Source: Oligoflexus sp. (GTDB taxonomy: Bacteria > Bdellovibrionota_B > Oligoflexia > Oligoflexales > Oligoflexaceae). From it: 12,320 nucleotides of DNA. How positions within the stretch are numbered: position 1 is the first letter of the stretch; every line of letters starts with the position of its first letter. The stretch spans positions 1-12,320 of the forward strand of contig JASLCY010000282.1 of assembly GCA_030151925.1 (NCBI GenBank), written 5' to 3'. The position numbers and the translations under genes are program-made. Under the pieces are notes generated by a model that did not search any database, had not been told where the DNA came from, and saw nothing but the letters and a program-made list of their open reading frames with translations. Shown one piece after another: positions 1 through 4,201 of the stretch.

Positions 1-352
1 GCGAAATCAATTCGGTCGGCAGAGTCGCGCGACGAATATTCGCCCTGTAAAGAATAGCGCCTCGAAGCTTTGAATAATCGAGGTCGGCATCTTCGAGATT
101 CGCACCGGTGAAGTCCGCACCTTCGAGGTTGGCACTCCAGAGGGAGGTTCCTCTCAAATCCGCATCACGGAAAACAGCGTCTTTGAGGTTGGCATAAGAG
201 AGATTCGCCTCTCGCAAATCACAGCCCGAGAAGTCGATTTTCACCAGGTTCGCTTTGCGCATGTCAACATTGACAAGCGATTTTGTTTCGGCAAGAAGTT
301 CGAGCACTTCTTTACGTGTCAGAGTGACAAGATTTTCCGAATTCTTGCTCAT
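1..352 (-). CDS. Pentapeptide-repeat protein, partial (C-terminus beyond left edge)
   Basis: The ATG at 352-350 follows AAGGAG at 6-nt spacing, so the start is well supported; 117 codons are visible before the edge. A short N-terminal helix (about residues 10-28) leads into a strict five-residue register: a hydrophobic residue stands at every fifth position from M31 through L36, F41, L46 and so on to L111, mostly as A(D/N)Lxx. That is about 17 consecutive repeats, enough for at least four coils of the right-handed quadrilateral beta-helix known for this family. There is no signal peptide, so it is probably cytoplasmic. Family members range from DNA-mimic gyrase protectors to proteins of unknown role; nothing here selects a function. 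It lies 84 bp downstream of iscB on the same strand, and its leader may contain the right end of that element. Confidence 0.9.
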   Translation of the reverse strand, partial: MSKNSENLVTLTRKEVLELLAETKSLVNVDMRKANLVKIDFSGCDLREANLSYANLKDAVFRDADLRGTSLWSANLEGADFTGANLEDADLDYSKLRGAILYRANIRRATLPTELIS

Positions 353-405
353 GCTTTCTCCTTTGAAAACCACTTCCCATAGGGAGCGGGGGAAAAGGAG
401 CCTGC

Positions 406-424
406 TATCTCCAGGTCGGAGATA
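406..424 (-). other. Hairpin just 3' of iscB; candidate right-end structure of the IscB element
   Basis: TATCTCC (406-412) and GGAGATA (418-424) form a perfect 7-bp stem with a 5-nt loop, 12 nt beyond the iscB stop codon. On the minus strand the next T-run (TTTT, 393-396) is short and about 9 nt away, so it is a poor intrinsic terminator. Subterminal hairpins are typical of IS200/IS605-type ends, to which IscB elements are related, so a right-end role is plausible but inferred. Confidence 0.4.
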
Positions 425-436
425 ATCTTAAGAGGC

Positions 437-1720
437 TCATGCGTACATATAACCATCGAATCGATGCAAAATTCTGCAATCTTTGGCGCGGATGCCCTGT
501 ATCGTGTTCTCGGCCGTCTTGATGTTGAAACTCCCCGTGCTGCGCACGGCTACGCGCCCAACATAGTGCCCCTTCTTTTTCCCTTGTTCGACACGAGCGT
601 GAACCATGTCTCCCGTTTGAAAGCCCTGGACGCGTTTTTGGGCTTTGGGACTAGTTCTAGGAAATCCATAGCGATCCATCAGACACTTTTGCCGACTGCC
701 ACGTCCCGTGGCCTGAACGAATAATGGCTTTAATTGTGGTGAAATATAAACCTTTGCTCCCGTCTCTCCCACGCAGGCGGCATCGATCCAATGATCCTTT
801 GGATAGCCTTGAGCTACGCGATTTTGCTTGGTTCGACCTCCGGACCAAAGGCTGAGAGGTAAGGCGAGAACGGCGAGTTGTTCCGCGATAGCAAAACGCG
901 TGGTATTGACAGCCGCTGCGTCTTTGAGTGGGACCTTAGCAAAAGCAAGGATTTTAGCCAGCTTTCCCTTATCTTTGACAAAGGTCTCTACACTGCGCGA
1001 AGCTTTTTTCTGGTTGCAGGGGCGACAGGCTAGAGTCAAGTTTGAAACTCTGTCGCTACCACCCAGTGCGCGTGGAACTATATGTTCCACTTCCAGAGGA
1101 AGATCTTTCTTCCCGCAATAGGCGCAGGTTCTTTGCCATTTTTCCAGGAGATATTCGCGCAGCTCGTAGCCCAGGAGTTCTCCCTGCCGGTATTCGATGC
1201 CGGATATCTCGGGATTGACGATTTTTTGCATATCAAAACGCACGGTTTCAATGGCTATGGTACTAATCGGTGCCTTACGCATGATTCTTCGCGTCCAATG
1301 AAAGACGTTTTCCACGCGTGACCGAAGAGAGGGCGCCAGCCATCCTTCTGGTTTTTGCCGATTTTGAAAGCGAGGCGCGCGGTATCGAGTATGGCGGTTT
1401 CTTCGTGAATGCCGGAGAATTCGTCGTGTTTGCAGGGCATCGCGTATTACGCGACCTCTGTGAGAGAGGTTCAAGGCAAAGACAATGCGTCTTCCTTGCC
1501 TGCTTTCGAGCGAAAGAGCCAGCCCGGTCGTGCGGCTGCCTGGATCGAGTTTGAGTTCGAGGGGCTGATTATGGCCGGTCTCTCGTTCTTTAAGCCGGAT
1601 GGTGAAGGGAAAACGCTGGCAGACGACGGCCTTTCCCTTGCGAAGGAGCATCCTTGCTCTTGCTGGATGGCAAGGCATAAGCGGCTGAGCGCTTTTAGTG
1701 ACCACAAAAACTCTTTGCAA
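437..1720 (-). CDS. iscB: IscB RNA-guided DNA endonuclease (RuvC split by HNH), 427 aa
   Basis: IscB proteins are the RNA-guided nucleases from which Cas9 is thought to descend; they use an omega-RNA encoded upstream of the gene. Visible in order: the N-terminal PLMP domain (QPLMPC, residues 12-17, with the following Arg/Lys-rich segment); RuvC-I KLDPGSRTTGLAL with D59; an Arg-rich bridge helix (about 98-121); RuvC-II IAIETVRFD with E158; an HNH domain with zinc pairs C199/C202 and C232/C235, catalytic-type E212-H213 and N227; RuvC-III DHWIDAA with H310 and D313; and a C-terminal TAM-interacting domain (about 340-427) ending FDGYMY. All key residues are present and the length is normal, so it is probably active. 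The start is TTG, with GAAAGG about 10 nt upstream. No IS200/IS605 transposase accompanies it. Sequence identification is by motif recognition, not by search. Confidence 0.96.
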   Translation of the reverse strand: MQRVFVVTKSAQPLMPCHPARARMLLRKGKAVVCQRFPFTIRLKERETGHNQPLELKLDPGSRTTGLALSLESRQGRRIVFALNLSHRGRVIRDALQTRRILRHSRRNRHTRYRAPRFQNRQKPEGWLAPSLRSRVENVFHWTRRIMRKAPISTIAIETVRFDMQKIVNPEISGIEYRQGELLGYELREYLLEKWQRTCAYCGKKDLPLEVEHIVPRALGGSDRVSNLTLACRPCNQKKASRSVETFVKDKGKLAKILAFAKVPLKDAAAVNTTRFAIAEQLAVLALPLSLWSGGRTKQNRVAQGYPKDHWIDAACVGETGAKVYISPQLKPLFVQATGRGSRQKCLMDRYGFPRTSPKAQKRVQGFQTGDMVHARVEQGKKKGHYVGRVAVRSTGSFNIKTAENTIQGIRAKDCRILHRFDGYMYA

Positions 1721-2035
1721 AATAAGTTACCTTTCGGTCTCCGCATGAAAGCGGGTGTTGAGCCCTATATAGGCTCGTCTCCTTGACAGTGTTGAGAGCA
1801 GTTTTTACGCAAGTAGCACTGGCCTAAACCCCTTACACCTGTTTAACCACTTGCCGCAGAGCCTGGGACTGGAGAAGCATCCCAAGGTGCCTATATATTT
1901 GCTCGCAACGTAGCTTGGGATGACTCCCTTGCTAAGTCGGGTCAACATGAAGCCTGTAGGGATTGCTCCTTACAAATTTGCCCATTAGAGCAGGTAGTTG
2001 ACGTTTACCTCATCCATAGCCACGGGATCCACTTC
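1721..2035 (-). ncRNA. IscB omega-RNA (HEARO RNA), including predicted guide
   Basis: This stretch without a credible gene directly upstream of iscB carries the expected scaffold. On the minus strand, GTCAACTACC (2002-1993) pairs through GTCAAC with GTTGAC (1946-1941), enclosing a TGCTC/GAGCA stem (1992-1988 with 1968-1964). Then GGGAGTCATCCC (1928-1917) leads into a perfect 9-bp stem, CATCCCAAG (1922-1914) with CTTGGGATG (1886-1878). A further stem, GCAAGT/ACTTGC (1854-1849 with 1814-1809), encloses GTTTA-type pairs (1845-1841 with 1829-1825). Two small hairpins precede the start codon: GAGCC/GGCTC (1776-1760) and CCGC/GCGG (1754-1741). The GTCAACTACC, ATGTTGACCC and GGGAGTCATCCC blocks match my recollection of the HEARO/omega-RNA consensus. 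The 5' boundary and guide (about 2014-2035) are inferred from element layout, so the exact ends are uncertain. Confidence 0.88.
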
Positions 2036-2140: not shown

Positions 2141-3136
2141 TTACTTCGCCATCAGCGCAGCGACGTCGAGCATGCGGTGACTGAAACCCGACTCGTTATC
2201 GTACCAGGCCAAAACCTTGATCATCTTGCCGCCGATGACCATGGTGCTGTCCGCGTCGACGGTCGACGAAGCGGGCGAACCATTGAAGTCCGAGGAGACG
2301 AGCAGTTCGGTGGTGTAGTTGAGGATGCCTTTGAGAGGGCCGTCCGCAGCGGCTTTCAGAGCAGCGTTCACTTCTTCGATGTTGGTTTCTTTTTTCACGG
2401 TGACGGTGAGGTCGACCAGTGAAACGTTCGGCGTGGGAACGCGGATCGAGATGCCGTCGAGCTTGCCTTTGAGTTCCGGCAGCACGAGGCCGATCGCCAC
2501 GGCGGCGCCGGTCGAGGTCGGGATCATGTTGGTCGCGGCCGCACGCGCGCGACGGAGGTCCGAGTGCGGGAGGTCGAGGAGCTGTTGGTCGTTGGTATAG
2601 CTGTGGATCGTCGTCATCTGACCGACTTCGATGCCGAATTTCTCGTGGAGGATCTTGGCGACCGGCGCCAGGCAGTTGGTCGTGCAGCTGCCGTTCGAGA
2701 CGATGGTCATGTCCGCTTTGAGTTTGTCGTGGTTCACGCCGTAGACGACGGTGAGGTCTTCGCCTTTGGCGGGAGCGGAGATGAGGACTTTCTTCGCGCC
2801 GGCTTTGATGTGGGCTTCAGCCTTCTCGCGATCGCGGAAGATGCCGGTCGATTCGAAGACGATCTCGACCTTGTTCGGGCCCCAGGGGATTTCCGCCGGG
2901 TTGCGGACGGCTGAGACGCTGATTTTTTTGCCGTTGACGATGATCGCGCCTTCGGCCGCTTCGACCGTCGCGTCGAGCACGCCGTGGACGGAGTCGTACT
3001 TGAGGAGGTGAGCCAGCGTTTTTGTATCGGTGAGATCGTTGATGTGAACGATTTCAATATCCTTACGCTTGAGGGCAGCCCTCATCACAACCCGACCGAT
3101 GCGACCGAAACCATTGATGCCGACTCTAAGTGTCAT
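2141..3136 (-). CDS. gap: Glyceraldehyde-3-phosphate dehydrogenase, type I
   Basis: This enzyme converts glyceraldehyde-3-phosphate, NAD+ and phosphate into 1,3-bisphosphoglycerate in cytoplasmic glycolysis. The 331-aa length is normal. The Rossmann nucleotide-binding motif GINGFGRIG is at 6-14; N33-D34 after the second strand indicates preference for NAD over NADP. The catalytic segment [12 protein letters not shown] holds the nucleophile C151, and the base is H178 in IHSYTNDQ. The C-terminal [12 protein letters not shown] motif is intact. The ATG at 3136-3134 has AGGAG 9 nt upstream. It stands alone, not beside pgk or tpi within the window, and has its own terminator. Its codon use and high GC contrast with the more AT-rich neighbouring iscB locus, which supports separate ancestry of the latter. 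Confidence 0.98.
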
Positions 3137-3186: not shown

Positions 3187-3215
3187 GTTATACTCCCCGC
3201 CCCCGAAAAAATCCA
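3187..3215 (-). promoter_or_regulatory. Candidate gap promoter abutting the palindromic repeat
   Basis: TATAAC (3192-3187) on the minus strand matches 5 of 6 bases of a -10 box. With a 17-nt spacer the -35 position is TGGATT (3215-3210), a 3 of 6 match that just touches the outer edge of the palindrome arm. The spacer is unusually G-rich. The leader to the gap start would be about 45 nt. Confidence 0.4.
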
Positions 3216-3337
3216 GAAGCCATCTCATAAATGCGATGGCGTCGTTCTTCGTCGTCGGGCGCTCCTCATGTACCAGCGCGTACACTCCGGGCGCCCTCCT
3301 CCTCGGGCCTAGCCCTCCCATTTATGAGATGGCTTCT
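3215..3337. repeat. 123-bp palindromic MITE-like element
   Basis: A perfect 19-nt inverted repeat, AGAAGCCATCTCATAAATG (3215-3233) and its complement (3319-3337), encloses 85 bp. Inside is a second stem, GGGCGC (3257-3262) with GCGCCC (3291-3296), holding two GTAC copies (3269-3272 and 3280-3283). A short alternative stem, GCCATC (3219-3224) with GATGGC (3235-3240), competes with the long arms. CCATCTCATAAA resembles the ends of IS5/IS427-type elements, so a non-autonomous mobile element is likely. I see no target-site duplication. It sits between divergent gap and the gene at 3461. Confidence 0.65.
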
Positions 3338-3380
3338 CGAGAGATAGACCCACCTTGGCTCGATGGCCCCCGCTTACCCT

Positions 3381-3460: not shown

Positions 3461-4201
3461 GTGTCAAAAAATACAGATTTCTACCGTTATGTCATCAGTT
3501 TCGCGATGTCGATCTTCATCGTGCCTAAAGCTCAAGGCGCCATGCCTACGGCAGGACTGCCTATAGAACCCGCATCTTCGCTCAAAGACATCGAGAGCGA
3601 CGCTCCTGCGGATCTACACGAGGAGCGCGCCCGCTCGCGACGGACATCTTCTCTCAACCCGAACGACGGGACCGGGACCGTAGCCCCCTCCGAACGCACC
3701 GCCCGGGCCAGCAGCCCCCGCAGCGAAGGCGACGGCGATTTCGGGGCCGCGATCCGCCTCAGCATGATCCGCGACGGCTTCGGCGCCCAGATCAAACTGC
3801 TCGAATACCCCGTCTCGTGGCTGGCCATCACCCAGACCGCGCGTTATTTCCAGAACGATCAGGTCGAGCGTCTCCATAAGCAGCGGCAGGGCTATCTGAT
3901 CGGCTTCGACCTCCATCCCTGGCGGCACGCGTTCATCTCGCCCTTCCTGAACATGCAGGCCGGCTACGAGAAATTCTACCGTTACGACGATCAGAGGACG
4001 TTGGATTCTTCGGTGGGGGAAGCCTCGGCTGGCCTCGAGCTGCGGCTCGGCCATCTCGCTTCCATCAGCGGGCAATGGACGGAAGCCTATTATCCCAGCC
4101 TCCGCGAAGCGATGTTCACCGGCGAGGAGAACGCCAGGAATCCCAGGCATCATGCGATAGCCGAGATCCTGTTCAACTTGAAATGGGAAACGAGCTACTG
4201 A
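3461..4201 (+). CDS. Exported hypothetical protein, probable outer-membrane beta-barrel
   Basis: I do not recognise a named family. The GTG start at 3461 has GAGAGG about 8 nt upstream. Residues 10-26 form a hydrophobic signal segment ending KAQGA, so export is likely. Residues 45-92 are a polar linker rich in Ser, Arg, Pro and Glu, with low complexity. From about residue 93 the chain alternates polar and hydrophobic residues in strands rich in Tyr, Phe and Trp (for example KLLEYPVSWLAITQTARYF and AIAEILFNLKWETSY), ends with an aromatic residue and has Gly turns, as in outer-membrane barrels. At 246 aa it would be a small barrel of about 8 strands. Its stop overlaps the convergent lipoprotein gene by 7 bp. 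The barrel assignment is inference from composition. Confidence 0.8.
   Translation: MSKNTDFYRYVISFAMSIFIVPKAQGAMPTAGLPIEPASSLKDIESDAPADLHEERARSRRTSSLNPNDGTGTVAPSERTARASSPRSEGDGDFGAAIRLSMIRDGFGAQIKLLEYPVSWLAITQTARYFQNDQVERLHKQRQGYLIGFDLHPWRHAFISPFLNMQAGYEKFYRYDDQRTLDSSVGEASAGLELRLGHLASISGQWTEAYYPSLREAMFTGEENARNPRHHAIAEILFNLKWETSY

Follow-up and report, generated by a model that had tools for sequence, protein, structure and literature searches.

An IscB/omega-RNA element situated directly ahead of a predicted host start codon in Oligoflexus

Results

An IscB element inserted at the predicted start of a host gene

The 12,320-nt stretch of Oligoflexus sp. DNA analyzed here (hereafter the window) carries a gene for IscB, the nuclease family regarded as the ancestor of Cas9, together with an omega-RNA. 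Our results suggest that the two form an intact IscB/omega-RNA (OMEGA) element, probably a working one, which settled in front of the predicted start codon of a host gene and which may partly compensate this gene for the intrusion. As a pair of protein and RNA it is a fresh but ordinary member of a very large family; what the analysis adds is where and how the element sits. An initial annotation of the same DNA, made from the sequence alone, had described the nuclease and its RNA. The ends of the element, its empty site, its guide, its target-adjacent motif (TAM) and its position at a start codon are additions to that description.

The element was delimited by comparison with relatives, which were searched among 43 genomes of the order of L015 (an Oligoflexaceae bacterium). 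The DNA on the side of the window that carries the glyceraldehyde-3-phosphate dehydrogenase (GAPDH) gene was matched in 35 of these genomes, and the five best matches (L123–L127) were compared in detail. In all five, as in the window, the GAPDH gene (2,141–3,136, minus strand; assigned by a profile match and by the gene order of the relatives), which fixes synteny upstream, is followed by a pentapeptide-repeat gene (2–352, minus strand; 117 codons, still open at the window edge; Pfam PF00805, 94.4 bits), with no IscB between them. Because these relatives keep both neighbors without the insert, the element can be assigned to positions 353–2,002 of the minus strand (1,650 bp, with ends ambiguous by 1 nt); its absence from all five also indicates that it is probably a lineage-specific insertion. 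The unit is therefore not the interval 420–2,035 given by the initial annotation: it consists of 353–2,002 plus a guide at 2,003–2,018. The alignment is best in L123, L124, and L125, whose empty site reads GATGAGGTAGAC-ATGAGCAAGAA. The filled site of the window reads GATGAGGTAAAC, then GTCAAC...AAAGGAGAAAGC, then ATGAGCAAGAA. No target duplication accompanied the insertion, which took place at a short fixed site, with a conserved GAGG on one side and the tetramer ATGA on the other.

The pentapeptide-repeat gene is predicted to start at the ATG of this ATGA (349–352, minus strand), and in L126 there is no other start codon between it and the upstream stop. In the old flank of the window, as in each of the five relatives, GAGG precedes the ATG by 5 nt. 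At −6.9 kcal/mol, the pairing energy of this old site with the anti-Shine–Dalgarno sequence in the window falls within the range of the relatives (−5.6 to −7.2 kcal/mol). The element has split this likely ribosome-binding region from the ATG, and its place is now taken by an outward Shine–Dalgarno-like AAAGGAG (358–364, minus strand), which is spaced 5 nt from the host ATG and is predicted to pair with the anti-Shine–Dalgarno sequence at −8.7 kcal/mol. This motif belongs to the right end of the element, which comparison with the empty sites places at 353–436 (minus strand), downstream of iscB. The right end also presents a putative hairpin, GAGCCT...AGGCTC with inner arms ATCTCC/GGAGAT (398–438, minus strand); the fold of 345–440 around it has a z-score of −1.67, and 11 of 200 shuffled sequences folded as well.

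We presumed, following what is generally held for IscB, that the guide occupies the 16 nt located 5′ of the RNA. The candidate guide is then TATGGATGAGGTAAAC (2,003–2,018, minus strand), and since the element separates the conserved GAGG from ATGA, it corresponds to the likely ribosome-binding region that the host gene possessed before the insertion (GATGAGGTAGAC-ATG in L123, L124, and L125). The guide is identical to the intact site at 12 of 16 positions in these three relatives, at 9 of 16 in L126, and at 7 of 16 in L127. In the window, it is the sole site within three mismatches. Judging from the sequence, the ATGA tetramer directly after the element is the probable TAM, a reading based on the empty sites and on the recurrence of ATGA across the family.

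Full-length or near-full-length relatives of this IscB were found in two of the 43 genomes (G001 and G030); the remaining matches span the HNH region or little more. The G001 copy is broken by a contig end. The G030 copy (L093) has the same layout as the window: old flank GAAGGACTGATCA, element end GAAAGGAAGCATT, then ATGAAAAATACTCTGTTCGC, starting with ATGA.

The IscB protein and its omega-RNA

The gene iscB (437–1,720, minus strand), defined by its open reading frame (ORF) and by profile matches, starts with TTG and encodes 427 amino acids. Its product matched the NCBIfam equivalog NF040563 (guided_IscB) with 434.5 bits, for a cut-off of 175, and the Pfam family RRXRR with 225 bits; three HNH families also scored above their cut-offs. 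The RRXRR/PLMP-RuvC plus HNH architecture of IscB is thus present above curated thresholds. We aligned the protein with 16 sequences chosen from the 120 matches listed. The residues D59, E158, H213, H310, and D313 were identical in all 17 sequences, and the zinc-type cysteines C199/C202/C232/C235 were invariant as well; E212 was replaced by D in two sequences. The conserved RuvC and HNH residues are presumably the catalytic ones, and the protein does not show the loss of catalytic residues that defines a nuclease-dead OMEGA regulator. The initial annotation was right to describe a complete IscB with all its catalytic blocks, including the residue numbers, and DNA cleavage by this protein appears plausible.

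Homologs of this IscB are numerous. At least 7,999 proteins were found at an E-value of 0.001 or better (the 7,999 best candidates were scored), and homologs occur on at least 544 genome-contig stretches, in 88 plasmid records, in 58 phage records, and at 11 viral loci. The closest named homolog among the matches listed is the IscB of Oligoflexus tunisiensis (79% identity). Relatives with solved structures comprise 17 distinct sequences, with chains named TbaIscB, IscB/OgeuIscB, HfmIscB, an IsrB fusion, and Cas9-type proteins.

The omega-RNA sits directly upstream of iscB on the same strand. Its scaffold (1,772–2,002, minus strand) matched the Rfam HEARO model RF02033 over its full length (model positions 1–211) with 114 bits, for a gathering score of 83 (E = 1.8e-23). 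We aligned 15 HEARO RNAs from the scanned loci, including that of the window, and 22 of the 33 predicted pairs showed a two-sided compensating change in at least one sequence. HEARO was also detected above threshold in 14/14, 9/14, and 13/14 related loci in three batches (42 loci, chosen from 80 fetched related stretches plus L093 and L001). The initial annotation had proposed a foldable HEARO/omega-RNA at this place, to be checked with the HEARO covariance model and IscB profiles; both searches matched above their thresholds, the IscB profile by a wide margin. It had also named the loss of stems by non-compensating changes in close relatives as an observation that would speak against its reading, and compensated pairs were found in relatives instead.

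The two stems singled out by the initial annotation fared differently. The closure GTCAAC/GTTGAC (1,941–1,946/1,997–2,002) is an exact complement, and in the Rfam model it falls within the outer stem. The 9-bp stem at 1,878–1,886/1,914–1,922 is likewise an exact complement, yet the Rfam alignment pairs 1,879–1,886 with 1,862–1,869. In four relatives, the longest perfect upstream complement to this 9-bp segment is 4 nt in two cases and shorter than 4 nt in the other two. We therefore regard it as an alternative pairing and not as a consensus stem. In the Rfam alignment of the window, the 5′ stems also include some non-standard pairs. Single-sequence folding did not distinguish the RNA (z-score of −1.28, with 16 of 200 shuffled sequences folding equally well); because of this, folding energy was dropped as evidence in favor of the covariance model and covariation.

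ATGA and start codons across the family

The association of the element with ATGA extends well beyond Oligoflexus. Among the 256 possible tetramers, ATGA ranks first in the region 15–130 nt past the iscB stop codon, where it was found in 38 of 55 lineages versus 19.7 in shuffled sequences. In 27 of the 44 lineages with an ATGA located 15–215 nt past the stop, this tetramer opens a frame of at least 80 codons. We also examined nine plasmid copies, fetched from the 20 listed of 88 records, and in four of them the first ATGA coincides exactly with the start of an annotated coding sequence: an HNH gene, parB in Trichormus, parB in Deinococcus, and a prepilin gene. On the Trichormus and Deinococcus plasmids (L261 and L262), which belong to two different phyla, the IscB element stands between annotated parA-type and parB-type genes.

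Desulfobacter latus possesses many copies of a related element, whose IscB is approximately 56% identical to that of the window, and this allowed us to compare many insertions within one species. A fuzzy search for the right end yielded 62 distinct junctions, followed by ATGA in 58 cases, TATA in three, and GCAT in one. The analyses of start codons and gene interiors were restricted to right ends followed by ATGA, and control ATGA sites were drawn from loci of at least 9,000 bases around elements rather than from whole genomes. A frame of at least 100 codons is opened at 37 of the 58 ATGA junctions, compared to 19.5% of 1,313 control sites (p = 1e-12). Among the copies with both flanks, 16/36 lie at the first ATG of a frame of this length, compared to 64/1,352 control sites (p = 9.6e-12). 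Based on a simple gene model, gene interiors were avoided (5/36 insertions versus 956/1,206 control sites), and no insertion was found in antisense gene interiors (0/36 versus 423/1,206). Four of the five interior insertions correspond to frames that had been scored as starts and that present a further in-frame ATG upstream; the other, L051, interrupts a sense frame. When only non-disrupting sites were considered, the ratio of starts to other sites was 16:15 for D. latus and 46:204 for the controls (odds ratio of 4.7, p = 1.1e-4).

Several D. latus copies depart from the common form. A divergent right end, TTTTCTTGCCGGTTTTT (L248, L251, and L253), is followed by TATA instead of ATGA and perhaps belongs to a sister element with another target. 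Five right ends (L249, L250, L252, L254, and L255) lack the inner hairpin and keep AAGGAGG-GCGGCAA-TTCC-TTGCCGC-ATTTT|ATGA, with ACGGCAA as a variant in L254, such that a short hairpin stands between the Shine–Dalgarno sequence and the start. Five miniature elements of 333–349 bp (L193, L177, L224, L225, and L245) have no room for iscB and keep HEARO (151.7–159.3 bits) as well as a right end flanked by ATGA. These miniatures may be mobile elements made of the omega-RNA only, which could lend guides to IscB proteins made elsewhere.

Shine–Dalgarno sequences at the ends of the element

The sequences GGAGG, AAAGG, or GAGGT were found approximately 3–12 nt before ATGA in the window and in L093, L027, L028, L030, L041, and L056, as well as in the further lineages L070, L076, L084, L088, L257, and L260. 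In L021, L032, L036, and L046—and, by eye, in D. latus—AAGGAGG or GGGAG abuts the 5′ side of the terminal hairpin, whose folding would bring the purine run near the ATG. We compared the Shine–Dalgarno energy of 38 right ends to that of their own preceding DNA. A signal was detected directly before ATGA in 11/38 right ends and before the stem in 6/38, and 16/38 presented one or the other, where 3.7 were expected (p = 1.8e-7). These right ends are not independent since some loci are pairs from one genome. Eight positions were set by hand from a hairpin-adjacent ATGA, and the stem search misplaces some stems (L049 of D. latus was scored as having no signal). With a composition shuffle, 8 of 28 lineages fell below 0.05. 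We conclude that a Shine–Dalgarno sequence at the right end is a real trait in part of the family and that the other members have none or a weak one.

The old ribosome-binding site was likewise detected in left flanks relative to their own upstream DNA (Kolmogorov–Smirnov p = 2.5e-5; 10/28 at or below 0.1). Of the 33 loci that remained after two of 35 had been left out for want of an ATGA, the 28 whose frame has at least 60 codons were included in this analysis. At one locus, L078 (1,263–1,845), a cobalamin riboswitch (114.5 bits) is located just upstream of HEARO, and a frame of 552 codons starts from the ATGA after the element; the omega-RNA of this locus may be under riboswitch control.

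Discussion

A possible mechanism of retention

The sequence that becomes the guide of IscB lies 5′ of the RNA scaffold and beyond the boundary of the element, and the omega-RNA must therefore be transcribed from host DNA. To our knowledge, neither the transcription of a guide outside the element nor the sparing of the host is well explained to date. Landing between a ribosome-binding site and its start codon would account for both. Situated immediately ahead of the ATGA at the predicted start, the element could be transcribed from the promoter of the host gene, which would produce an omega-RNA whose 5′ guide is the old ribosome-binding sequence of the host; an insertion at a start codon, in the sense direction, would favor this transcription. 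IscB and the omega-RNA would then be expected to cut any sister chromosome that still has, or has regained, the empty site, where the guide match is followed by ATGA, and repair of this cut would copy the element back, such that its retention or return would be favored. These steps of retention by cutting follow the published model of OMEGA systems. Finally, the right end would supply a new Shine–Dalgarno sequence, with which the displaced gene could still be translated and the damage lessened.

We consider the chances about even that a large branch of IscB specializes in start codons, with ATGA combining the roles of transposase target, IscB TAM, and start codon. If so, such elements would place their guide under a host promoter, turn the old ribosome-binding site into the guide, and repay the gene through their right end, and their persistence would be explained by translation coupling and not by RNA-guided cutting alone. 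Natural pairs of guide and putative TAM (ATGA) for a group of compact nucleases can moreover be read directly from genome sequences.

Evidence against and alternative explanations

Several observations weigh against the position and mechanism proposed here. In four of the five relatives other possible in-frame starts exist further upstream, and the joined old flank of the window has an in-frame ATG five codons upstream; given these starts, the insertion may have removed a small number of codons from the N-terminal end. The frame following ATGA in L093 is only 59 codons long, and the Shine–Dalgarno signal of its right end is not significant alone (p = 0.17). Five of the nine plasmid copies have no annotated start at the first ATGA: in one, a GTG is annotated 8 nt beyond it, and the other four do not fit. 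In D. latus, 20/36 copies lie elsewhere than at the first ATG of a long frame. Shine–Dalgarno-like right ends are not universal, as 22/38 show no signal at p = 0.05. We also rejected the idea that the old Shine–Dalgarno sequence is stronger in left flanks at start sites than elsewhere since three tests were not significant (p = 0.20 in D. latus; p = 0.12 across loci and p = 0.27 after correcting for groups). Finally, a promoter scan of the minus strand of 300–2,300 found no sigma-70-like promoter.

Some of these observations would be expected of an ordinary IscB element whose position at start codons is a by-product of a transposase that needs ATGA, combined with selection against insertions within genes; the purine run of the right end would then have no translational role and may serve transposase recognition. 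This is the most serious alternative, although we judge it to be the less probable account. The strong avoidance of gene interiors in D. latus fits it well, as do the copies away from first ATGs and the right ends devoid of a Shine–Dalgarno signal. It leaves unexplained that start codons remain enriched 4.7-fold (odds ratio) when only non-disrupting sites are compared and that GGAGG or AAAGG recurs at ribosome-binding distance from ATGA in lineages whose ends otherwise differ.

It is also conceivable, if rather unlikely, that the element landed inside the coding sequence, a few codons past the true start, and that the host protein now begins at an internal methionine. The in-frame starts upstream of the ATGA in the joined flank and in most of the relatives are compatible with such an event; the lack of any other start before the stop in L126 and the constant spacing of GAGG and ATG in all five relatives argue for the ATG of ATGA. 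Even less credible, in our estimation, is a decayed or immobile relic, in which the IscB or the RNA has stopped functioning or now serves the host as a regulator. A relic could account for the single copy seen, for the TTG start, and for the fact that the ORF scan of the 12 kb revealed no transposase. Against it stand the open frame with every catalytic and zinc residue, the full-length HEARO above threshold, and the intact nuclease residues, which a dead regulator would not have; in addition, the absence of the element from the five relatives examined points to a probably lineage-specific insertion. An intact element inserted ahead of the predicted host start codon is the explanation that we regard as likely.

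Comparison with known systems

Like the IscB of known OMEGA systems (NF040563; OgeuIscB, PDB 7xht; IscB, PDB 7utn), the protein of the window has an RRXRR/PLMP start, HNH between the RuvC parts, and a C-terminal domain, and the HEARO omega-RNA lies directly upstream. In these systems, too, the guide stands at the 5′ end of the omega-RNA. The protein is shorter (427 amino acids versus 495–496 for the chains of 7xht and 7utn), and the element differs by its putative ATGA TAM, its start-codon position, and its outward Shine–Dalgarno sequence. Relative to HEARO (RF02033), the only difference noted in the full-length RNA is the non-standard pairing in its 5′ stems. The ISC transposons of Kapitonov et al., dating from 2016, are said to be non-autonomous, to make no target duplication, and to have a fixed 4-bp site and IS605-like ends. 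Like these IS200/605-like transposons, the element of the window entered a short fixed site and left the target unduplicated; the preference for start codons and the Shine–Dalgarno sequence of the right end may be additions to this picture. TnpB-derived repressors and other domesticated OMEGA proteins resemble the element of the window in having guides aimed at the expression signals of a gene. In contrast to these proteins, the nuclease residues of the window are intact and its guide matches its own insertion site.

IsrB offers a parallel for the TAM. As described in PMC9581776, DtIsrB uses an NTGA/TTGA TAM located 3′ of the target, which resembles the ATGA proposed here, and in IsrB, which acts as a nickase, HNH is replaced by a linker; the protein of the window, unlike IsrB, has HNH. 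We found no description of landing at a start codon or of an outward Shine–Dalgarno sequence in the accessible portions of the literature on IscB, HEARO, IS605, TnpB, and insertion sequences, and an earlier mention in the key papers is possible. The portions of PMC13180657 and PMC9755519 available to us do not describe insertion of IscB at start codons.

Mobilization and other features of the window

Upstream of the insertion site, a block TTTCC...TT.TGAGACA is common to the window and three aligned relatives. The initial annotation had called the IscB solitary, and indeed none of the 12 ORFs scanned in the 12-kb window encodes a Y1 transposase. Y1 genes were found in the genomes of three of the five relatives, and 11 Y1 matches were found in D. 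latus; we infer that the element may be mobilized in trans by a Y1 transposase. The best of the D. latus matches (L153) was considered as a mobilizer and rejected, as no motif common to its ends and those of the IscB element was found.

Two further features of the window lie outside the element. A match to skipping-rope RNA (3,543–3,590, minus strand) scored below threshold (22 bits versus 36.7) and is likely due to chance. An inverted repeat at 3,212–3,340 has arms of 29 nt that are 90% complementary and 71 nt apart; it recurs at 70–83% identity in G010 and G030, which belong to the same order, and is perhaps a miniature inverted-repeat transposable element.

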